This document shows, in pieces, positions 2,831 through 18,616 of a DNA stretch of 64,000 nucleotides. Each line of letters starts with the position of its first letter. Position 1 is the stretch's first letter. Where the stretch lies: assembly GCA_020446675.1 (NCBI GenBank), contig JAGREE010000012.1, forward strand, positions 1 to 64,000. The letters are read 5' to 3'. The position numbers and the translations under genes were made by a program. This DNA is from Alphaproteobacteria bacterium. GTDB lineage: Bacteria > Pseudomonadota > Alphaproteobacteria > Sphingomonadales > Emcibacteraceae. The notes below the pieces were generated by a model that worked only from the letters and a program-made list of their open reading frames with translations, had not been told where the DNA came from and made no database searches.

Positions 2831-3796
2831 GTGATTAAGAGAGCGAAGGAGGGTTTTGTCCCAAGTGATGAACAGATGGCTCTTTGGCCTGATGTCTCAG
2901 GGAATGATATCAATGGCCTTGGTGAGACGGAAATAAGACGGCCTTCGCCAATTTACTGGCAGACACCGGAGCTAACCCCATTCGGGCCATTAATGCAGTT
3001 TTTTGAGGATCATGCGCCGCGCGATGAAGGTCTCTATAAAACCCAGATGGAGACAGACAGGATCAGGTCAACAGAAATACCGCCAATTTCCAGTGTCAGA
3101 ATAGAAAAGACATCGTCGGAATGGTCAATTCTTGCCAAGCAAGTGGCAATTGACAGTGGCGCGGTTGCTGTCGGTATTACAAAAATGCGCCCGGAATGGG
3201 TAATTGATACGTTTGATGTACCCTATGAAAATGTTATTACCATTGGGGTGGCAATGGATTTTGAAAATCTAAAAACGGCACCCGAGGTTCCATCGGCGAT
3301 AGAAGTCATTAAAAAATACGGTGAAGCCCACATTGTCAGCCATGCCATAGCCACCTGGATTCATGAGCAGGGCTGGAATGCTAAATCTTATGGTGGGTCA
3401 AATAATGTTCCCATCTTGCTTATTCCACCGGCCATTGAAAGCGGACTGGGGGAGCTTGGAAAACACGGATCTATCATCAACCGGGAAAATGGATCCGTTT
3501 TGCGGCTGGGTGCTTTGGTCACGAATATGCCGCTGGATTATGACAGTCCGGACAGCTTCGGCGTCGATGATTTCTGTATGAACTGTAAAGCCTGCCAGAA
3601 TGCCTGTCCGCCGGATGCTATTTATCCGGAAAAGCAAATGGTACGTGGCGTAAATAAATGGTATGTGGATTTTGATAAATGCCTGCCATTTTTTAACGAA
3701 AATACCGGTTGTGGAATTTGCCTAGCGGCCTGTCCCTGGAGCCGTCCCGGTGTACCAGGTAATTTAATCAGGAAGATTGCTAAAAAATACAGCTAA
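2831..3796 (+). CDS. reductive-dehalogenase/QueG-like 4Fe-4S protein
   Basis: 321 residues, GTG start overlapping the end of the preceding SD-bearing region. The C-terminal third has two ferredoxin motifs, CMNCKACQNACP and CGICLAACPW, preceded by the GLGELGKHGSI segment seen in reductive dehalogenases and epoxyqueuosine reductase, both corrinoid-dependent. No twin-arginine signal is present, so it is probably cytoplasmic, and no membrane anchor RdhB lies beside it. It is shorter than respiratory RdhA (about 450-550) and lacks the fused NADPH reductase of catabolic BhbA-type enzymes. It could be an RdhA-like reductase fed by separate donors, or a QueG-related protein. The position behind two exported hydrolases gives no direct clue to substrate. 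Confidence 0.65.
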   Translation: MIKRAKEGFVPSDEQMALWPDVSGNDINGLGETEIRRPSPIYWQTPELTPFGPLMQFFEDHAPRDEGLYKTQMETDRIRSTEIPPISSVRIEKTSSEWSILAKQVAIDSGAVAVGITKMRPEWVIDTFDVPYENVITIGVAMDFENLKTAPEVPSAIEVIKKYGEAHIVSHAIATWIHEQGWNAKSYGGSNNVPILLIPPAIESGLGELGKHGSIINRENGSVLRLGALVTNMPLDYDSPDSFGVDDFCMNCKACQNACPPDAIYPEKQMVRGVNKWYVDFDKCLPFFNENTGCGICLAACPWSRPGVPGNLIRKIAKKYS

Positions 3797-3827: not shown

Positions 3828-3855
3828 TTGACATATTTTTTGAATATGGTATCAT
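3828..3855 (+). promoter_or_regulatory. sigma-70-type promoter of the mini-transcript
   Basis: TTGACA at 3828-3833 and TATCAT at 3850-3855 are separated by 16 bases, close to the sigma-70 optimum. The site sits after the stop of the Fe-S gene and before two six-codon ORFs, so it would start a short independent transcript near 3862. Confidence 0.55.
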
Positions 3856-3886
3856 TTTTTGGTGGTTTAAAAAGTAGGAGGGTATT

Positions 3887-3907
3887 ATGAGTGGCGATAA
3901 GGTTTAA
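3887..3907 (+). CDS. six-codon ORF MSGDKV
   Basis: ATG AGT GGC GAT AAG GTT TAA encodes MSGDKV. A near-perfect ribosome site AGGAGGG at 3876-3882 sits 4 bases before the ATG. The following ORF has the same start and the same final Val codon, which argues against chance. Function unknown; translation is inferred. Confidence 0.35.
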   Translation: MSGDKV

Positions 3908-3961
3908 TATTTAATCACAAGAGTAATTAATTTAAGTTGGCATTTAAAAATGGAGAGAGTT

Positions 3962-3982
3962 ATGAGTGGCGCACAAGTTTGA
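3962..3982 (+). CDS. six-codon ORF MSGAQV
   Basis: ATG AGT GGC GCA CAA GTT TGA encodes MSGAQV, differing from the upstream hexapeptide only at residues 4 and 5. GGAGAG at 3952-3957 is a strong ribosome site. It is the second of a pair inside one predicted short transcript. Function unknown. Confidence 0.35.
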   Translation: MSGAQV

Positions 3983-4021
3983 AAAAATTTTAAATCGATT
4001 TTAGTAACGTCGAATTTAAAT

Positions 4022-4057
4022 AAAAAACACTCCGGTTATTCACTTGGGGTGTTTTTT
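4022..4057. terminator. bidirectional intrinsic terminator
   Basis: AAAAAACACTCC pairs with GGGGTGTTTTTT (one G-T wobble) around a 12-base loop. The A-run and T-run flanks let it work both for the mini-transcript on the + strand and for the TPR lipoprotein gene ending at 4069 on the - strand. Confidence 0.75.
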
Positions 4058-4068
4058 ATTTAAATTAA

Positions 4069-4863
4069 TCACAAGCTTCCTTTATTTCGTAATTCTGAAA
4101 TATATTTTAACTCATTACTTGATGATTTATCGTCCGGGTTGAGTTTAATGGCCTCATTATATTTTACTTCCGCCTCATCCAGTCTGTTAAGTTCTATAAG
4201 GCTATATCCCGCTCCCCTTAATGCTCGTCCTTTTTCTGTTATTTTTATTTCTGTCGGGGAAACATCAGCATCTTTAACCGATTTTTCAAAAATTTCCAGT
4301 GCTTCAATGTAGCGCTTTTCTGTTTGATAAATATGCCCCAGTTCTGATGAAAAAAGACTATTATTCGGAGATAACTGCAAAGCCTGATTAAGAGCATTCT
4401 TAGCCGCGCTCAGCCGTCCAAGTGAGATATTGATGTAGCCTTTCAAATAAAATGCAAAGGCAAATACATAAGGAATATTATAGATATTATCAGGTTTATT
4501 ATTTTTTTTCGTCAAACCGCTTTGTAAGAGGCCGGTCATTGTATAAAGCATGGATTCCTGTTTTGATCGGGCGCTGAACATATTTGAATATTTATTTTGA
4601 TACTTTTGCGTAAAATATTCAATTATAGGATCGATGTTAGCGTCCAGAGCTTTGGATAAGTCACCCTTCTGGATAAGCAATTGAGCCTCTTTCATATGTT
4701 GATATATTTCAGGTGGTGCATCGGATGCAACGAGAGCCAAAACCTCTTTGTTTCCATCAGCACTCATGCTGGCAATGGGGGAGGCATTAGTATTATTAGT
4801 ATTTGTCGTTTTGCAACCGGGCAATGCTAACGCCAAGCCAATAATTAGTATATATTGTTTCAT
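4069..4863 (-). CDS. TPR-repeat lipoprotein
   Basis: 264 residues starting MKQYILIIGLALALPGCKTT: a short signal peptide with lipobox LPGC, so the protein is probably lipid-anchored at Cys17. The C-terminal half contains tetratricopeptide repeats, for example around residues 150-215 (SELGHIYQTEKRYIEALEIF) and 220-255 (AGYSLIELNRLDEAEVKYNE), a fold used for protein contacts. The middle part is not recognisable. The gene stands alone, convergent with the mini-transcript and divergent from the acylase gene. Its ribosome-binding region is a run of 13 G, described separately, that could vary expression by slippage. Partner unknown. Confidence 0.7.
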   Translation of the reverse strand: MKQYILIIGLALALPGCKTTNTNNTNASPIASMSADGNKEVLALVASDAPPEIYQHMKEAQLLIQKGDLSKALDANIDPIIEYFTQKYQNKYSNMFSARSKQESMLYTMTGLLQSGLTKKNNKPDNIYNIPYVFAFAFYLKGYINISLGRLSAAKNALNQALQLSPNNSLFSSELGHIYQTEKRYIEALEIFEKSVKDADVSPTEIKITEKGRALRGAGYSLIELNRLDEAEVKYNEAIKLNPDDKSSSNELKYISELRNKGSL

Positions 4864-4868
4864 TATAT

Positions 4869-4881
4869 CCCCCCCCCCCCC
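4869..4881 (-). repeat. 13-base G homopolymer at the ribosome site of the TPR lipoprotein
   Basis: On the coding (-) strand, 13 consecutive G residues sit 5 bases before the ATG, exactly where the Shine-Dalgarno sequence belongs. Long G/C homopolymers gain or lose bases by slipped-strand mispairing. A change here would alter the anti-SD register or promoter spacing rather than the reading frame. Confidence 0.7.
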
Positions 4882-5002: not shown

Positions 5003-7216
5003 ATGCGGGGAAAAATTTACAAATCATTTGGATTTTGCATTATTTTACTTATCAGTGCCTGTGGGTCAGATCAGTCAGATATGGCCAAAAATGATACAAG
5101 CACAATTAAAAACCAGGCGCAGAATGTGACCATTTACCGCGACCAGTGGGGTGTACCGCACATTCACGGTAAAACTGATGGAGATACTGCCTTTGGTATG
5201 GGATATGCCCAGGCAGAGGATAATTTTGATCAATTGGAACTCGGATTTATCATGGGCGTTGGCCGTTCAGCGGAATTGCTTGGCGAAGAAGCACTGCTCT
5301 CCGACTGGGTTGTCCATAGTTTTGAAAATAATAAACTGTCAAAACGTGATTACGAGAATGCTTCCCCGGCTATTAAATCATTGCTTGACGGCTATGCTGC
5401 CGGGATCAATTATTATATTGAAACCCATCCCGATCTTGAAGTGAGACTGCTTAATCATATTGAGCCATGGTATTCGCTTGCCCTTATCCGCAGATGGTAT
5501 TATCTGGGCGGCTTTTTGGGGCGGTTGCGTTTCACAACCGAGGAGCGGACCGCCGCTTTTGAAGCGATTAACGGGACTTCACTTGAATTGGCACAACTTG
5601 AGCTGCCAAAATATGATCCGGAAGACAGAAAGGAATTCGGATCCAATTCATGGGCTGCCAATAATAGCAAAATAGTGGGGACTGGGTCATATCTGTTTAT
5701 TAATCCGCATCTTCCTGCTTTTGGAATTGGCCAGACATATGAAGCCCATATGATGTCGGATGAAGGATGGAATTTTACCGGTTATGCCCGATTTGGCTAT
5801 CCGCTTCCTTATATTGGATTTGGGGAAAATCTTGGCTGGATGAGCACTGATAATTTCAGCAATCAGGAAGACAGCTGGATTGAGCATTTTGATGTTGCGG
5901 ATGATCCGCTTGCCTATAAATATGGTGATGGAACGAGCGAAGCAACAGAATGGAGCGGTGAAATCAAAATCAAAGGCGGAGAGGTCAGAACCGTTAAATA
6001 CAGAAAAACCCACCACGGCGCTGTTGTCGCCATGCGTGACGGCAATTTCCTGTCCGGCAATTTTGCCACCTATGATCAGCCCGGATGGCTAGACCAGTGG
6101 TATAATATGCAGCGAGCCGAAAATATTGAACAGTTTACAAAAGCGATTGAACCACAAAGAATGAATTTCGGAAATATCATGTATGCCGACAGAGCAGGCA
6201 ATATTTGGTATATTTATAATGGTTCGGTTCCTATCAGAAATGAAGGATTCGACTGGAACAATGCGGTTGACGGCAGCAATCCTGACACAGACTGGAAAGG
6301 GTATCATACGCTTTATGATCTGCCTCAAGTGTTAAACCCTGTTTCAAATATGATGCAAAATACCAACACAACGCCCTTTAATGTGAGCATGTCAGAAAGC
6401 GATGCCAAGCAAGAAAATTATCCAAGTTACATGGTTCGTGAAGGTGATAATGCCAGAAGCCGCAATGCCAGAAGAATATTAAATTCAATTGAAACTTTTG
6501 ACTTTGCAACCTGGGAACGTGAATCCCTTGATACCCATATGGCGGAATGGCCGATATCTAAACCAATCCTCATGGAGGCATATGCGGAAACATCAGAAAA
6601 AAATGCTGAGCGCGCAGAGAAACTTGCCCCGGTCATTTCAATGCTTGATGAATGGGATGGAATTGCAACGCTGGAATCACCGGAGCCGACAATATATACC
6701 GACTGGTTTGAAGGACTATACAGGGGGAAACCCCGGGGATATGTGGCCACAAATGAAGAGGTGATCGCTTCTCTCGAGCAGGCAATGGATCGATTGGTAA
6801 AAGACTGGGGGGCGTGGCAGGTGGCCTGGGGTGATATTAACCGTTCCCAGCGTCCGCCGCTTGATGCTGCAGGAAATCCATTATTTGATGACAATGCGCC
6901 GAGCATTGCCACCCCCGGTGTGCCCAGCTGGTCTGGGGGAAGCATGACCGTATTTAATCTTAGACAGGACGGGCTAAAAAGGCGCTATAAAACAGGAGGG
7001 AACAGTTATACGGCCGTTGTCGCCTTTCCGGGCGAGCCGAATGAGAAAGTAAAATCAAAATCAGTCCATGTTTTTGGGGCAAGTGCAGATCCGGCGTCAC
7101 CGAATAATATGGATCAGGCAGCTTTACTTGCTGCTAAGAAATATAAATCCGCCTGGCTTTACATTGAAGATGTTAAAGCGAATGCCAAAAGGTCATATCA
7201 TCCGGGCGAGGAATAA
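5003..7216 (+). CDS. penicillin acylase family Ntn-hydrolase lipoprotein
   Basis: 737 residues of the penicillin amidase (S45) family, which hydrolyses amide bonds of penicillins, acyl-homoserine lactones or other N-acyl compounds in the periplasm. The precursor normally cleaves itself into alpha and beta chains; the new N-terminal serine is the nucleophile. Here that site reads FGSNSW, with Ser214 after Gly213. A signal peptide with lipobox ISAC (Cys20) suggests a lipid anchor, unusual among soluble family members. The typical N-terminal region VTIYRDQWGVPHIHG begins near residue 42. A serine hydrolase gene follows after about 20 bases, probably in one operon. Quorum-signal degradation is possible but not shown. 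Confidence 0.87.
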   Translation: MRGKIYKSFGFCIILLISACGSDQSDMAKNDTSTIKNQAQNVTIYRDQWGVPHIHGKTDGDTAFGMGYAQAEDNFDQLELGFIMGVGRSAELLGEEALLSDWVVHSFENNKLSKRDYENASPAIKSLLDGYAAGINYYIETHPDLEVRLLNHIEPWYSLALIRRWYYLGGFLGRLRFTTEERTAAFEAINGTSLELAQLELPKYDPEDRKEFGSNSWAANNSKIVGTGSYLFINPHLPAFGIGQTYEAHMMSDEGWNFTGYARFGYPLPYIGFGENLGWMSTDNFSNQEDSWIEHFDVADDPLAYKYGDGTSEATEWSGEIKIKGGEVRTVKYRKTHHGAVVAMRDGNFLSGNFATYDQPGWLDQWYNMQRAENIEQFTKAIEPQRMNFGNIMYADRAGNIWYIYNGSVPIRNEGFDWNNAVDGSNPDTDWKGYHTLYDLPQVLNPVSNMMQNTNTTPFNVSMSESDAKQENYPSYMVREGDNARSRNARRILNSIETFDFATWERESLDTHMAEWPISKPILMEAYAETSEKNAERAEKLAPVISMLDEWDGIATLESPEPTIYTDWFEGLYRGKPRGYVATNEEVIASLEQAMDRLVKDWGAWQVAWGDINRSQRPPLDAAGNPLFDDNAPSIATPGVPSWSGGSMTVFNLRQDGLKRRYKTGGNSYTAVVAFPGEPNEKVKSKSVHVFGASADPASPNNMDQAALLAAKKYKSAWLYIEDVKANAKRSYHPGEE

Positions 7217-12290: not shown

Positions 12291-13142
12291 ATGTGTCCAG
12301 CAATAGTGGAAGAAGGACATCAAAGGGGTTACATCATTCCCATTGGTGGTGCTGAAAATAAAGATACCAACCCTTCTATTTTAAAAAAATTTACTGAAAT
12401 TTCAGGTGGAAAAAACGCGAAAATTGTGATTATTCCGACGGCGTCGCGCCTTGATGATACAGGCGAACGATATGAAAAAATATTTTCTGAAATCGGTGCC
12501 GGTGAAGTAAGCCATATTGATATTACAAGCCGGGAAGACTGTAACAACCCAGAATTTGCCAGCCGCTGCGAAGAGGCCACGGGCATTTTTATCACTGGTG
12601 GCAATCAGCTACGACTTGCGACTATTCTTGGTGGCACAGCGGTCGCACAGGTTATCAGAACAGCAAATGCCCGTGGTGTCCATGTTGCGGGCACCTCGGC
12701 CGGGGCATCAATTATGTCGGAACATATGATTGCAGGCGGTGAATCAAATGAATCGCCAAGAGAGGGTGGTGCTATATTGGCACCGGGACTTGGTCTGACC
12801 AATGCAATGATCATTGATCAGCATTTTTCGGAAAGAAACCGGCTTGGAAGACTGCTTTCAGCCATTGCCTTTAATCCATTTCTGATGGGAATGGGAATTG
12901 ATGAAGATACAGCGGCCTTTATCGGCCCGGATGATATGTGCGAGGTGATTGGTAGTGGAACGGTAACCATTGTTGATGGTGTGGATTTGACCTATTCATC
13001 AGCCTATGGCACCGACAATACAAAAGCATTGGGCCTTCTTGGTTTAAAGCTTGATATTCTGCATGAAGGCTGCCTTTATAATTTTGATATCAGGGAAGCA
13101 TTCCCGCCTATTGAAGATCGGCAGAATGTTTGTAAAATTTAA
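12291..13142 (+). CDS. cphB: cyanophycinase
   Basis: 283 residues of the S51 peptidase-like cyanophycinase family, which cuts the storage polymer multi-L-arginyl-poly-L-aspartate to beta-Asp-Arg dipeptides. The nucleophile serine is in GTSAGAS (Ser136); the preceding ITGGNQLRLA and the later IDQHFSERNRLGRL are family hallmarks. Length fits intracellular cyanophycinases, and there is no signal peptide. It is the first gene of cphB-cphA-cphA-like, 30 bases before the synthetase. The ribosome site is weak. Context and motifs agree, so the call is strong. Confidence 0.93.
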   Translation: MCPAIVEEGHQRGYIIPIGGAENKDTNPSILKKFTEISGGKNAKIVIIPTASRLDDTGERYEKIFSEIGAGEVSHIDITSREDCNNPEFASRCEEATGIFITGGNQLRLATILGGTAVAQVIRTANARGVHVAGTSAGASIMSEHMIAGGESNESPREGGAILAPGLGLTNAMIIDQHFSERNRLGRLLSAIAFNPFLMGMGIDEDTAAFIGPDDMCEVIGSGTVTIVDGVDLTYSSAYGTDNTKALGLLGLKLDILHEGCLYNFDIREAFPPIEDRQNVCKI

Positions 13143-13172
13143 AATATAACTAAAATATTGAGAGGGACTTAA

Positions 13173-15971
13173 ATGAAAATATTAAAAACGAATTTATATT
13201 TGGGGCCCAATCAATATGCCAAATTTAAGGTCATCCGGCATGTGCTGGATATTGGCGTTCTGGAGGACTGGCCTTCTGCGAAAATCGGTAGCGAATTTGT
13301 TGACGGACTGGTTGAGGCGCTGCCCGGGCTTCACGAGCATGGCTGCTCTTACCGTGTGCCAGGGGGGTTTATTCGTCGACTAAGGGAAGATGAAGGCACC
13401 TGGATGGCCCATATTATCGAGCATGTGGCGCTGGAGCTACAATGTGTTGCCGGTAATGAGGTTACGTTTGGCCGCACCCGATCAACGGGTGAAGTTGGTC
13501 AGTATAATATGGTTTATGCTTATATACATAAGGACGTAGGATTGGCGGCCTGTGAACTTGCCATTAAGTTATTGATGCATTTATTGCCAAAAGATTTGCA
13601 GGAAAAAACAGACTATCCGATTGAAGAAGATTTCGACTGGGAAGCAGAACAGACAAGATTTATTAAAAGTGCACAAAGGCATGCTTTCGGCCCTAGTACC
13701 GCTTCACTCGTCGCGGCGGCAGAGGAAAGGGATATTCCGTGGCTGCGGCTGAATAAATATAGTCTGGTCCAATTCGGACATGGGAAACATCAAAAAAGAA
13801 TTCAGGCGACCATTACATCAGAAACCAATCATATTGCTGTGGAAATTTCCTGCGATAAGGAAGATACCCATAATCTGCTGAATGATTTGGGGCTGCCAGT
13901 TCCGCAACAACAAATGGTTTATAGCTCAAATGAGGCCATTAAAGCCGCACAGCGCATAGGGTATCCTGTCGTTGTCAAACCGCTGAACGCCAATCACGGT
14001 CGGGGTGTATCGATCAATTTAAGTAGCGATGAGGAAGTGGAAGCTGCTTTTGATGTCGCGAAAGAACAAGGGACGAGTCGGGCTGTCCTTGTCGAAAGCT
14101 ATATGACAGGTTTTGATCACAGGATGCTGGTCGTAAATAATGAACTGGTTGCGGTGGCAAAGCGCGTTCCGGGGCATGTGGTCGGGGATGGAAAACATAC
14201 GATTGCAGAGCTTATTGATATTGTGAATGAAGACCCGCGTCGTGGTGTCGGTCATGAAAAGGTCCTGACAATTCTTGAAATTGACAGTCAGGCAAGAAGA
14301 TTAATGAAAAATGCCGGATATACAGAAGAAACAGTGCTTGAAGATGGCAAGATTTTTTATCTTCGGGATACGGCCAATCTTTCGACTGGGGGCACCGCTA
14401 TTGATCTGACCGATGTCGTCCATCCTGATAATAAGGAAATGGCGCAGCGGGCAATTCAAGCCGTCGGACTTGATGTTGGCGGCGTTGATTTTTTGACCAC
14501 TGATATCAGTAAATCCTATAAAGTGGTTGGCGGCGGTATTGTTGAGGTAAATGCCGCACCAGGCTTTAGGATGCATGTTGCACCATCAGAGGGAAAAGCA
14601 CGTGACGTTTCGGGAAAAGTGCTGGAAATGCTATTCCCGGTTGGAACCCCAAGCCGTATTCCAATCGCAGCCATTACCGGAACCAACGGCAAAACCACAA
14701 CGTCAAGAATGCTGGCCCATATCATAAAAACCTGTGGTTATACAGTGGGGCTTACCACGACGGACGGAATATATGTTGATGGGAAGCAGACAGTTAAAGG
14801 GGATACAACCGGGCCCCGCTCTGCCCAAATGGTCCTGCGGGATCCTACAGTTGACTTTGCCGTTCTTGAAACTGCAAGAGGCGGGTTGGTCAGAAACGGA
14901 CTTGGTTATGATAGTACAAATGTTTCGGCATGTCTAAATGTGGCGTCAGACCATCTGGGGATGGGGGGTATTGATACTCTGGAACAGCTCGCTGAAATTA
15001 AAAGAATTGTTATTGAAGCGGCGACAGATACGGTGGTTTTGAATGCGGATGATAAACACTGCCTTCTGATGGCGGATTATGCCGATGCGGATAATATTTT
15101 CTATGTGACCATGCACCATAATCATGCATTGGTAAAACAACATATTGATGCCGGCGGGAAGGCCTGTGTTCTTGAAAAAGGCATGAATGGGGATTTGATC
15201 ACTATTTATGATAACAGTACTCATATTCCGGTATTATGGTCACATCTTATCCCGGCAACCATTGAAGGAAAAGCGCTCCATAATGTGCAGAATGCCATGT
15301 TTGCAGTGGCAATGGCCTATAGCTTTGGTGAAGATCTGGACCAGATCAGACTTGGACTTAAAACCTTTAATACCACATTCTCACAGGCGCCGGGACGGAT
15401 GAATGTTTTTGACAAGCATGGCTTCCGGGTTATTCTGGATTATGCCCATAATCCGGCGGCATTCAGCGTGATGACTGATCTGGTAGATAAACTGAATACT
15501 CATTCCCGTAAGCTTATTGTTGCTTCCTGTCCGGGGGACAGGCGTGATCAGGATGTAGTAGAAAGCACGGAAGTCATTGCCGGCCACTTTGATCATTATT
15601 TCTTAAAGGCAGATGATAATCGGCGCGGACGGGAAAATGATGAAATTCCAAATATGATGAAAAAATGCCTGATGGATAATGGTGTTGCGGAAGAAGCTAT
15701 TACAGTTATTCCTGATGAGGTCGAGGCGATTGATAAGGCCCTGAATTCAGCAGGTGATAATGATCTTCTGGTTGTTTTTGGTGATAATGTTACGCGGTCC
15801 TGGAAGCAGATTATCAATTTTGGTGGCAATAAATCAGAGGCCGTTGCAACTAAATCAGAAATAAAAATTAAAGCCCCGGCATATGAAGATCTGATAGATG
15901 TGAATCTTCAGATCATCAGGGATGAGCGTGGTGTGCGTCTCGCCCGTGAAGATATTGAAGATGGTGACTGA
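13173..15971 (+). CDS. cphA: cyanophycin synthetase
   Basis: 932 residues with the full CphA architecture: an N-terminal domain (about 1-210), an ATP-grasp domain (about 210-480) that adds Asp to the backbone, and a Mur-ligase-like domain (about 490-880) that adds Arg to the Asp side chain. The Mur P-loop reads GTNGKTTTSR near residue 503, and RVPGHVVGDGKHT lies in the ATP-grasp part. Length is in the usual 870-1000 range. A good GAGAGGG ribosome site precedes the ATG. It sits between cyanophycinase and an ATP-grasp-less paralogue, five bases from the latter, and should be translated from the same mRNA. Confidence 0.95.
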   Translation: MKILKTNLYLGPNQYAKFKVIRHVLDIGVLEDWPSAKIGSEFVDGLVEALPGLHEHGCSYRVPGGFIRRLREDEGTWMAHIIEHVALELQCVAGNEVTFGRTRSTGEVGQYNMVYAYIHKDVGLAACELAIKLLMHLLPKDLQEKTDYPIEEDFDWEAEQTRFIKSAQRHAFGPSTASLVAAAEERDIPWLRLNKYSLVQFGHGKHQKRIQATITSETNHIAVEISCDKEDTHNLLNDLGLPVPQQQMVYSSNEAIKAAQRIGYPVVVKPLNANHGRGVSINLSSDEEVEAAFDVAKEQGTSRAVLVESYMTGFDHRMLVVNNELVAVAKRVPGHVVGDGKHTIAELIDIVNEDPRRGVGHEKVLTILEIDSQARRLMKNAGYTEETVLEDGKIFYLRDTANLSTGGTAIDLTDVVHPDNKEMAQRAIQAVGLDVGGVDFLTTDISKSYKVVGGGIVEVNAAPGFRMHVAPSEGKARDVSGKVLEMLFPVGTPSRIPIAAITGTNGKTTTSRMLAHIIKTCGYTVGLTTTDGIYVDGKQTVKGDTTGPRSAQMVLRDPTVDFAVLETARGGLVRNGLGYDSTNVSACLNVASDHLGMGGIDTLEQLAEIKRIVIEAATDTVVLNADDKHCLLMADYADADNIFYVTMHHNHALVKQHIDAGGKACVLEKGMNGDLITIYDNSTHIPVLWSHLIPATIEGKALHNVQNAMFAVAMAYSFGEDLDQIRLGLKTFNTTFSQAPGRMNVFDKHGFRVILDYAHNPAAFSVMTDLVDKLNTHSRKLIVASCPGDRRDQDVVESTEVIAGHFDHYFLKADDNRRGRENDEIPNMMKKCLMDNGVAEEAITVIPDEVEAIDKALNSAGDNDLLVVFGDNVTRSWKQIINFGGNKSEAVATKSEIKIKAPAYEDLIDVNLQIIRDERGVRLAREDIEDGD

Positions 15972-15976
15972 TCCGC

Positions 15977-17725
15977 ATGACCATAAATATCGAAGAGATT
16001 GAAGGTTATCTGGATATCAGAATTCCGGAATCCGATAAATTGACCCTCGAAAGCAGCCGCAGAGTAACCGGGCCCGGGCTTTTGTGGGAAAAACCGGGTG
16101 CCATACTTGATGTCTATGTAAAGGATTTCAAAAAAGAAGATGTCATCGCAACCTGGTTACGTGAAATTAATCAGGTTTTGCAGGCAATTGGCTGGACGAA
16201 GAGCGAAACCAGGACACGTGTTTTTGACACAGGTGTAAATCTGGCTATATCAGCGACAATAGACCTTCTTTATTCTGCCGTTTTTGTGGTTGAAGCCAGT
16301 TGGCATCTGGCTGCCTGTCAATTATTGGGGGAGAAACCGGATTCGTTTGATAAATTAATTGCTGATCTCAAAGACGTTATTAAGAAAGAACAGAACCCCC
16401 CATTGCTGGCTCTTCAGAAAGAAGCTGAGAATAGGAATATTGATGTCCTCTGGGATGATGATTATGTATCCCTTGGACATGGCAAAGGATCACTAAAATG
16501 GGGGATTAATGAAATTCCTTCCCCTGAGTGCGTGGATTGGAAATCTCTTCATAATGTTCCCGTTGCGCTTATTACCGGTACCAACGGAAAGTCAACCAGC
16601 GTGCGCTTATCTTCGACAATTGCTGCCGCAGCAGGTTTTGTCAGTGGGGCGACATCAACCGATTATGTAAAGCTTGGTGATGAAATCCTTGATTATGGTG
16701 ATTATTCAGGACCGGGCGGTGCCCGTATGCTGCTACGGGATAAAAGGCTTGAAATGGCTTTTCTTGAAGTGGCACGGGGCGGCATCCTGCGGCGTGGTCT
16801 GCCACTCAGGCAGGCTTCAGCAGCCCTGGTCACCAATGTTGCTGCCGATCATCTTGGCGAATATGGAATAAATACTGTTGAGCATCTGGCCGATGCAAAA
16901 TTCGCTGTTGCAAGAACGCTTTCAAAAGATGGCGTGCTTGTCCTTAATGCTGATGATCATTATGTAGTTTCAAACGGTCTGCGATCATCAAATAATCTCT
17001 GTTGGTATTCACTTGATAAAAAAAATGATCAGATAGTTAAGGCGCGGCAAGACGGAAAGTTATGCTGCTGGATGGAAAACAGAATTATTCATTATTTTGA
17101 CGGCAGTGAGGTGAGCCTGAAGATTGATGTGTCTGAAATTCCGATCACCATGAATGGGGCAGCGCAGTTTAACATCCATAATGCCATGGGGGTAATTTGT
17201 CTGACCAAAGCAATGGGGATTTCAAATAAGGCGATTATTGACGGGTTGACACATTTCCGATCTACGCCTGAGGATAACCCGGGGCGATGCAATGAATTTT
17301 TGGTAAAAGGTGCCCGTGTATTTGTTGATTTTGCCCATAATCCCCATTCCATAAACGCGATTTCAGATATGCTGAGCAATTTGCCGTCCCGCAGGAAGTT
17401 TTTGCTGATCGGTCAGGCCGGTGACAGATCAGATCAGGATATTATTGATCTGACCAGGGGGGCAATCCGTTTTAAACCCGATCAGGTTGTGACCATGGAT
17501 ATGGTTGCCTATTTAAGGGGACGGGAACCTGGTGAGGCAGCCTCTATCATCAAGGCTGAATGTATTAAAAATGGTATAGATGTATCTAAAATACATCATT
17601 TTCCATCCCCTTCTGAAGGAGCAAAATACATTATTGATCAATTAGAAGAAGGTGACCTTGCCTTGCTTCTGGCACTATCTGAGCGGGATAAAGTATTTGC
17701 CATGCTGAAAGAAGCGGGCGAATAG
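15977..17725 (+). CDS. CphA paralogue lacking the ATP-grasp domain (Mur-ligase type)
   Basis: 582 residues. Residues 1-190 resemble the N-terminal domain of cyanophycin synthetase (SSRRVTGPGLLWEKPGA near 27; YVSLGHGKGSLKWG near 165), then the sequence runs straight into a Mur-ligase domain with P-loop GTNGKSTS near residue 201. The whole ATP-grasp segment present in the neighbouring CphA is absent. By analogy with CphA, only the side-chain ligation (Arg onto beta-carboxyl of Asp) would remain. It begins 5 bases after cphA, so coupling is likely. It may modify the polymer, form a complex with CphA, or act on beta-Asp peptides. It is not CphA2, which keeps its ATP-grasp domain. Confidence 0.8.
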   Translation: MTINIEEIEGYLDIRIPESDKLTLESSRRVTGPGLLWEKPGAILDVYVKDFKKEDVIATWLREINQVLQAIGWTKSETRTRVFDTGVNLAISATIDLLYSAVFVVEASWHLAACQLLGEKPDSFDKLIADLKDVIKKEQNPPLLALQKEAENRNIDVLWDDDYVSLGHGKGSLKWGINEIPSPECVDWKSLHNVPVALITGTNGKSTSVRLSSTIAAAAGFVSGATSTDYVKLGDEILDYGDYSGPGGARMLLRDKRLEMAFLEVARGGILRRGLPLRQASAALVTNVAADHLGEYGINTVEHLADAKFAVARTLSKDGVLVLNADDHYVVSNGLRSSNNLCWYSLDKKNDQIVKARQDGKLCCWMENRIIHYFDGSEVSLKIDVSEIPITMNGAAQFNIHNAMGVICLTKAMGISNKAIIDGLTHFRSTPEDNPGRCNEFLVKGARVFVDFAHNPHSINAISDMLSNLPSRRKFLLIGQAGDRSDQDIIDLTRGAIRFKPDQVVTMDMVAYLRGREPGEAASIIKAECIKNGIDVSKIHHFPSPSEGAKYIIDQLEEGDLALLLALSERDKVFAMLKEAGE

Positions 17726-18616
17726 TTATCGGCAGGGTGCGAAGGTGGTTGATATAATATCCATGCTGTCAGAAACGGCTGCCCGCTTCATTCCGTCCGA
17801 ATTATAGGCCATGGCGATTTCACCTTTTTTATTCACGGCTATAAGCCCGCCATCACCACCCAGTCTTTCCACTTCATCAAGCAGCCGCCAGAGGGCTTCT
17901 TCAAGGCTGTCTCCCGCCAGTTCATATCCATTGGCAGTGGTCAGTGCCCCACCGGCACGAATAAAATATTCGCCGGTTCCTGTACAGGATATGGCAATAT
18001 CCTGATCTGCCCACGTACCGATCCCAATAATGGGTGTATCACCAACCCGGCCAGCTGGCTTTCCAAATACGCCGCCAGTGGAAGTGGCAGCGGCTAAATT
18101 TCCATGAATATCAAGTGCTACTGCACCTACTGTACCATGGAACATTTCGTAATTTTTGATGTCATCTTCTGTTACGCCTATGGGCAGAATATAGTAACTT
18201 TTTGGGTCTAAAACAGATTCAAATCCCTGTTCAGCGGCGAATTTGTTAGCGCCTTCTGCCGTTAACATGACACAAGGTGAATTTTCCAGTACGGCTTTTG
18301 CGACCCCGATGGGGCTAACCACATCCTTAATGGCGGAAACGGATCCGGCTCGGCGGGTATGGCCTTCCATGATGCTTGCATCCAGCTCTACCTGTCCCTC
18401 ATTATTGGGGGCGGAGCCTTTTCCCGCTACATAAAGTCCTGAGCTTTCCAGATTTGCGACCATAATTTCCACAACATCAAGAGCAGATTCTCCGGATCTC
18501 AAAAGCCTTTCCCCTTCTGTGGCAAGCTCCGCAAGATGGGCTTCCACCACTGAATAATCTTCACCGGCTTTGGGTCCGGCACCGCCATGAAGAGCGAGGG
18601 CAAATTTATCAGACAT
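17726..18616 (-). CDS. iaaA: isoaspartyl peptidase/L-asparaginase (Ntn hydrolase)
   Basis: 296 residues of the plant-type asparaginase family, which splits beta-aspartyl dipeptides. The precursor autocleaves at HG|TVGAVAL, making Thr162 the nucleophile, and TSTGG follows at 178-182, as in the E. coli EcAIII enzyme. HGGAGP at 10-15 is the family start. In this setting it should complete cyanophycin breakdown by splitting beta-Asp-Arg into Asp and Arg. The gene is convergent with the synthetase paralogue, and the two stop codons abut, so no terminator fits between them. Confidence 0.92.
   Translation of the reverse strand: MSDKFALALHGGAGPKAGEDYSVVEAHLAELATEGERLLRSGESALDVVEIMVANLESSGLYVAGKGSAPNNEGQVELDASIMEGHTRRAGSVSAIKDVVSPIGVAKAVLENSPCVMLTAEGANKFAAEQGFESVLDPKSYYILPIGVTEDDIKNYEMFHGTVGAVALDIHGNLAAATSTGGVFGKPAGRVGDTPIIGIGTWADQDIAISCTGTGEYFIRAGGALTTANGYELAGDSLEEALWRLLDEVERLGGDGGLIAVNKKGEIAMAYNSDGMKRAAVSDSMDIISTTFAPCR

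Follow-up and report, generated by a model that had tools for sequence, protein, structure and literature searches.

Gene content and layout of the locus

The element lies at positions 3828-4066 of the window, by which we mean the whole 64,000-nt stretch of DNA analyzed, from an alphaproteobacterium of the family Emcibacteraceae (genome G000). It is intergenic, with a plus-strand gene for a QueG-like 4Fe-4S protein upstream (2831..3796; Pfam Fer4_7), a conserved cluster gene with orthologs in the genus, and a convergent minus-strand gene for a TPR lipoprotein-like protein on the other side (4069..4863; Pfam TPR). A penicillin-acylase-family gene follows on the plus strand (5003..7216; PF01804). 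Two other features of the window were noted: a run of 13 C residues on the plus strand (4869-4881), which has the look of a slippage-prone and possibly phase-variable ribosome-binding site, and an apparent cyanophycin cluster (12291-18616) made up of genes for a cyanophycinase-like peptidase S51, a cyanophycin synthetase-like protein with Mur ligase and ATP-grasp domains, another Mur ligase, and asparaginase_2.

Direct reading of 3828-4066 confirmed the layout given in the original prediction, a promoter, two six-codon open reading frames (ORFs) each led by a Shine-Dalgarno (SD) sequence, and a terminator, all on the plus strand. The promoter, TTGACA-N16-TATCAT, has its -35 box at 3828-3833 and its -10 box at 3850-3855, matches the consensus at 11 of 12 positions, and is followed by a T-run. 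The first SD (AGGAGGG, 3876..3882; dG -10.7 kcal/mol) ranks in the top 2% when compared with those of 164 ATG-start genes and precedes micro-ORF 1 (ATGAGTGGCGATAAGGTTTAA, 3887..3907; MSGDKV, stop TAA). The second (GGAGAG, 3952..3957; dG -6.4 kcal/mol) ranks in the top 26% and precedes micro-ORF 2 (ATGAGTGGCGCACAAGTTTGA, 3962..3982; MSGAQV, stop TGA). The two ORFs share a frame and are spaced 75 nt apart, with 44 AT-rich bases between ORF 1 and the second SD. Folding indicated a small AT-rich hairpin in the gap between ORF 2 and the terminator (3990..4018), with weak counterparts in two of the homologs described below (G010 and the second transcript of G009). The intrinsic terminator (4013..4066) is a 21-nt inverted repeat with an A-tract and a T-tract, its arms (4013-4033 and 4046-4066) being 95% complementary; this part of the window folds with z = -4.7 relative to shuffled sequences. 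It goes unlisted in a simple terminator scan because its 12-nt loop exceeds the limit of 8 nt. Since the A- and T-tracts are symmetric, the terminator is probably bidirectional, serving the convergent TPR gene as well.

The near-identity of the two ORF units, also part of the original prediction, exceeds chance: the window holds the 20-nt unit GGAGRGNRTTATGAGTGGCG at two sites, versus 0.05 expected even with three mismatches, and no shuffle gave two copies. At zero mismatches, a search of 40 genomes returned only the two window sites; when two mismatches were allowed, one extra unit was found, in the same-genus Emcibacteraceae MAG G009 (C25:505796).

Homologous transcripts in related species

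Matching architecture in a matching neighborhood was identified in two further species of the genus, G009 and G010, bringing the total to three species, four predicted transcripts, and seven ORFs. In G009, two mini-transcripts follow one another downstream of the gene orthologous to the GDSL gene of the window. Transcript A consists of TTGACA-N16-TACGGT, AGGAGG, MSGAQPV, and a terminator; transcript B of TTGACA-N16-TACCCT, GGGAG, MSGANDG, GGAGAG, MSGGNKI, and a terminator. The G010 transcript (C15:94177), located directly 5' of the acylase gene, consists of TTGACA-N16-TACCAT, GGGAGG, MSGAIN, AAAGGAG, MSGAVT, and a terminator; it was found with a pattern for the ORF pair among 147 genomes. The fourth match to this pattern, in G062, has ATGAGCGG within a GC-rich frame. 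The recurrence of this layout in three species supports two statements of the original prediction, that the unit, having its own promoter and terminator, looks designed for translation, and that no family like it was known to the reader. No known family fits, and no Rfam family reached its gathering score, the best sub-threshold match scoring 28.9 bits versus 43 required.

Several searches delimited the family. In 60 genomes, a pattern of the -35 box, the T-run after the -10 box, the SD, and ATG, with the peptide left free, matched exactly these four transcripts, and reversed-pattern controls gave zero matches. A sequence-only covariance model extending from the promoter to codon 5 gave 62-78 bits for the members, which follows by construction, the model having been built from these four transcripts; the informative result is the gap to the next match at 21 bits. 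That match, in G012, lies in leader sequence before an ordinary gene for a 460-aa protein. At L009 in G007, promoter and leader letters are shared, but an ordinary ORF starts there, and an MSGNI match in G026 lies antisense within a 513-aa ORF and is attributed to chance. DNA similarity searches with the element against 60 relatives yielded short chance matches only. Among 84,980 species genomes, the pair pattern matched 25 times, and only the two known loci proved to carry a strict pair of short MSG ORFs, each with an SD, with the proviso that exact patterns miss diverged members and that fragmented MAGs may hide copies. The remaining matches lie mostly inside long frames. Viral contigs contained no pairs, their single-unit matches falling at the start of longer frames or inside them; phages gave no match, and plasmids gave one weak match, over the terminator.

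The distribution within the genus is patchy. The original prediction had staked itself on conservation of the ORF pair in close relatives, which was found, yet the element is missing from 10 of the 12 further genomes of the genus and present in only 3 of 13 with the window's genome included, a point that weighs against a micropeptide gene. The three genomes that bear it are all MAGs. The nearest relatives of G000 are without it, and it is therefore not essential. At the site upstream of the acylase gene, which holds the element in G010, G009 is empty with conserved flanks (L143 versus L142), and no element was seen at this site in G008. The empty G009 site retains a short terminator-like stem (GCACC..GGTGCCTTTTT). 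In trees, G009 and G010 group together (acylase tree), whereas G000 groups with G005 or with G005 and G012, both of which lack the element (moderate support); because the acylase tree contains over-long branches from mis-read rows, only its G009-G010 grouping was relied on, and cautiously. The three intergenic places, the empty sites, and the placement of element-less relatives in trees indicate that the element has either been lost from several species or moved from one site to another.

These observations bear on the notion that the element is decayed remains, or a chance assembly of promoter and ribosome-binding parts copied from larger genes. Most relatives lack it, G009 is empty where G010 has it, and the genuine gene leader in G012 partly fits the promoter/leader model, all of which speaks for such an origin. 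However, four independent diverged copies retain every functional part, and the promoter-SD-ATG pattern finds these four only, making this explanation the least credible of those considered.

Conserved and variable parts

All four transcripts begin with TTGACA-N16-TAYSNT and a T-run, the spacer being exactly 16 nt. The SDs range in dG from -6.4 to -11.3 kcal/mol, which places them within the top 1-26% of the 164 genes. ATG-AGY-GGY is retained throughout, codons 2 and 3 differing at the two wobble positions only, a signal that comprises just two columns and is thus small, but correctly placed. Codon 4 is usually GCA (Ala). ORF length is uniform within each species: six and six codons in G000, six and six in G010, and seven in all three ORFs of G009. 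Under a first-order Markov model, the chance that an ORF has 6-7 codons is 0.12; were the ORFs independent, four would all fall in this range with a probability of 2e-4 and seven with 3e-7. Because they are related, the true value is nearer the weaker end. Between MSGAQV of G000 and MSGAQPV of G009 transcript A, S, G, A, Q, and V are kept, while the Ser and Val codons and the stop differ and the length changes in frame by 3 nt. Beyond the head, the peptides vary (DKV, AQV, AQPV, ANDG, GNKI, and IN/VT).

The RNA itself is far less constrained. The inter-ORF RNA lacks both conservation and structure, the terminator stem sequence is not conserved, the translated regions of G009 transcript B and of G010 are unstructured (z of -0.04 and 0.38), and the terminators of the three two-ORF transcripts fold strongly (z from -4.7 to -5.6) with stems of differing sequence. 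This matters for one of the three options that the original prediction had offered, a dual-function small RNA, and more generally for any RNA that acts by pairing with near or distant mRNAs and in which the micro-ORFs are incidental. A size of about 200 nt, an own promoter, a U-rich intrinsic terminator, and an intergenic position would all suit such an RNA, and one third of the non-annotated translated small ORFs in Sinorhizobium meliloti lie on annotated small RNAs (PMC10117765). Nevertheless, the transcripts align poorly outside the translation signals, the best duplexes with sequences around the starts of local genes do not surpass those of shuffled RNA, and the Rfam result provides no family; we regard a base-pairing function as improbable.

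The second of these options, a start-stop ribosome trap, is disfavored by the ORFs themselves, as is a tRNA trap. In minigenes such as lambda bar and the toxic two-codon minigenes, peptidyl-tRNA drop-off depletes tRNA; very short ORFs behind strong SDs are in keeping with this, and strong SDs together with UAA promote minigene toxicity (PMC8708949). Toxicity drops with ORF length, two-codon ORFs being the worst, whereas the ORFs here are 6-7 codons long. The last codon varies (GTT, GTT, AAT, ACT, GTA, GGC, and ATA), and UAA, UGA, and UAG all occur. We consider a trap very improbable. Micropeptides, the remaining option, fit best.

The strongest rival is suggested by the position of the best-conserved signals, which are those of initiation: conservation peaks from the SD to codon 4, the tails vary, and elsewhere the RNA is rich in A and U and lacks structure. 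Accordingly, ribosome occupancy at the two strong SDs might be what matters, whether to stabilize the RNA, to buffer free ribosomes, or to sponge small RNAs that carry anti-SD sequences, with the hexapeptide as a by-product. There is precedent in the six-codon mini-ORF of the enterohemorrhagic Escherichia coli (EHEC) LEE4 leader, in which the mRNA owes its protection from RNase E to ribosome binding and to neither translation nor the peptide (PMC8708949). On the other hand, all four transcripts terminate and carry no downstream cistron to protect, and ribosome loading has no need for a constant 6-7 codons, for MSG, or for MSGAQ(P)V kept despite codon changes. Such a translation-protected RNA thus appears unlikely, if less so than the other alternatives.

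Gene neighborhood

All four transcripts are located in one conserved neighborhood of the genus, but in three different intergenic places. The neighborhood encodes a peptidase, SNase, PepSY-TM, PhoD, GDSL, QueG-like 4Fe-4S, TonB plug, LytTR, and DUF4440 proteins, penicillin acylase, and class C beta-lactamases. No micro-ORF element was found beside the orthologs of the QueG-like gene, and synteny with this gene alone is therefore not diagnostic. The QueG-like proteins show a large tandem expansion in one genome of the family, with 18 matches on C3 and C11 of G016 (L041). A HalD-like 2OG-Fe(II) halogenase (L070, 15197-15976; orthologs in G001 and G012) adjoins acylase or beta-lactamase genes in three same-genus genomes and is absent from the corresponding place in the window.

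The location of the G010 transcript, just 5' of the acylase gene and in line with it, could suggest a leader-peptide attenuator that controls a downstream gene through a conditional terminator, and attenuation dependent on upstream ORFs (uORFs) is known from Alphaproteobacteria (PMC12218461). The other members do not conform. The next gene in the window is convergent, the acylase gene lying some 900 nt away behind it; the next gene in G009 is a different one (HAD/UbiA); the acylase leader of G009 exists without the element; and the G010 acylase gene seems to have a TTGACA element of its own past the terminator. The members thus have three different downstream contexts in place of a common in-line gene, and an attenuator is quite improbable.

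No maturation enzyme was found near the element, and none is adjacent in all three species, nor is an exporter or receptor. The sole regulator detected in Pfam scans of the cluster genes is a LytTR gene (L070:9658-10464); in the window, the first LytTR gene comes no earlier than 20.4 kb. A local signaling link is thinkable because a LytTR regulator and secreted-looking hydrolases are nearby, and the peptide may be tied to the surrounding hydrolase/LytTR/TonB cluster; a receptor or maturation enzyme could also be encoded elsewhere in the genome.

A probable stand-alone micropeptide gene

The conservation pattern favors a micropeptide mRNA over a base-pairing small RNA, an attenuator, or a tRNA trap, and we put at roughly 60% the probability that the element is a micropeptide gene that stands alone and belongs to a family restricted to the genus. 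Its promoter, of sigma-70 type and constitutive in appearance, would drive, from near 3862, an mRNA of about 200 nt with two independently initiated six-codon cistrons and an intrinsic terminator at the end. Because each ORF lies behind a strong SD and ends after only 6-7 codons, a ribosome finishing one would still be near its own SD and could restart without leaving the mRNA, by analogy with mccA (PMC6495379). The micro-ORFs are thus probably translated reiteratively as mccA is, and two cistrons so translated would give a large peptide output per short transcript. Reiterative translation would also explain in physical terms why there are two short cistrons and why they keep to 6-7 codons. 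The sequences themselves establish the architecture, its conservation, the constraint on length, the absence of structure in the RNA, accessible translation starts, and strong termination, whereas transcription, translation, reiteration, processing, and signaling are inferred.

Translation would give fMet-Ser-Gly-X-X(-X)-X. Since Ser occupies position 2, deformylation and cleavage of Met are predicted, leaving SGDKV and SGAQV, but the peptide may also keep its formyl-Met. Given the constant MSG head, usually followed by Ala, and the fast-varying tail, we think that the selected product is the peptide and not the RNA. One caveat is that AGY and GGY might be favored merely as initiation context, early-codon effects on expression being known. 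As to use, the peptide would most likely serve as a leaderless signal, inside or outside the cell, or as a precursor that an unlinked enzyme modifies; our guess puts the signal first and the precursor second. The tails vary so much that a specific receptor ligand would require separate co-evolution in every species, which weighs against the proposal. The more elaborate proposal of a new class in Alphaproteobacteria, with single-promoter mRNAs bearing two reiteratively translated 6-7 codon Met-Ser-Gly cistrons for leaderless signals of a Gram-negative bacterium with species-specific tails, is tentative and rather doubtful as a whole.

The six- and seven-residue Met-Ser-Gly peptide genes of marine Emcibacteraceae may rank among the smallest known families of peptide genes; to our knowledge, very few genes this small have been described (mccA and sip). 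If the peptides are made, they would add free-standing units in marine Alphaproteobacteria to the known range of directly translated oligopeptides and offer a natural system in which to study reiterative translation and what holds such ORFs to 6-7 codons. Because standard annotation cannot detect 21-bp genes, the class may be larger than current counts suggest, and the promoter-SD-micro-ORF-terminator grammar is a workable search recipe.

Comparison with known systems

Small translated ORFs on short transcripts are familiar in Alphaproteobacteria from rnTrpL/peTrpL of S. meliloti and the DUF1127 uORF (PMC10117765, PMC12218461), but these are single, attenuator-linked ORFs encoding at least 14 aa, and no sequence relation was seen. 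The LEE4 mini-ORF, mg2 of axe-txe, and lambda bar resemble the element in combining a very short ORF, a strong SD, and AU-rich RNA (PMC8708949); they differ in lying upstream of a controlled gene or in being toxic two-codon minigenes, whereas here an own terminator closes the unit.

The element shares more with mccA, in which an ORF of 6-8 codons behind a strong SD comes first on the transcript and is followed by a terminator, the length being kept and the sequence poorly so. Reiterative translation is possible for short ORFs of 2-8 codons and was shown in vitro for mccA, with 71 rounds per ribosome (nrec) at seven codons versus 30 and 6 for versions of 11 and 15 codons (PMC6495379). The mccA ORF has 7 (8) codons, compared with seven in each G009 ORF and six in those of G000 and G010; it ends in Asn, as does one of the seven peptides here (MSGAIN). 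In contrast to mccA, the element has two ORFs per mRNA and stands alone, with no operon past the terminator, and no MccB/ThiF-type gene was found among the scanned proteins of the cluster and of positions 1-37.5 kb of the window. The likeness to leaderless communication peptides (LCPs), such as SIP of Streptococcus pyogenes, which is sensed by RopB, is that a peptide of mature size comes directly from a short ORF, of about eight codons in the LCP case, with no signal or pro-sequence (PMC10518010). LCPs have been described in Firmicutes together with a RopB/Rgg receptor gene, whereas here the host is an alphaproteobacterium and the ORFs are paired, and Pfam scans of the cluster genes revealed no Rgg/RopB domain. 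The element works most like mccA and the LCPs yet belongs to neither, since it has no Asn end as a rule, no MccB, and no RopB-type receptor nearby, and there is a fair chance that it represents a class of its own among ultra-short peptide genes.
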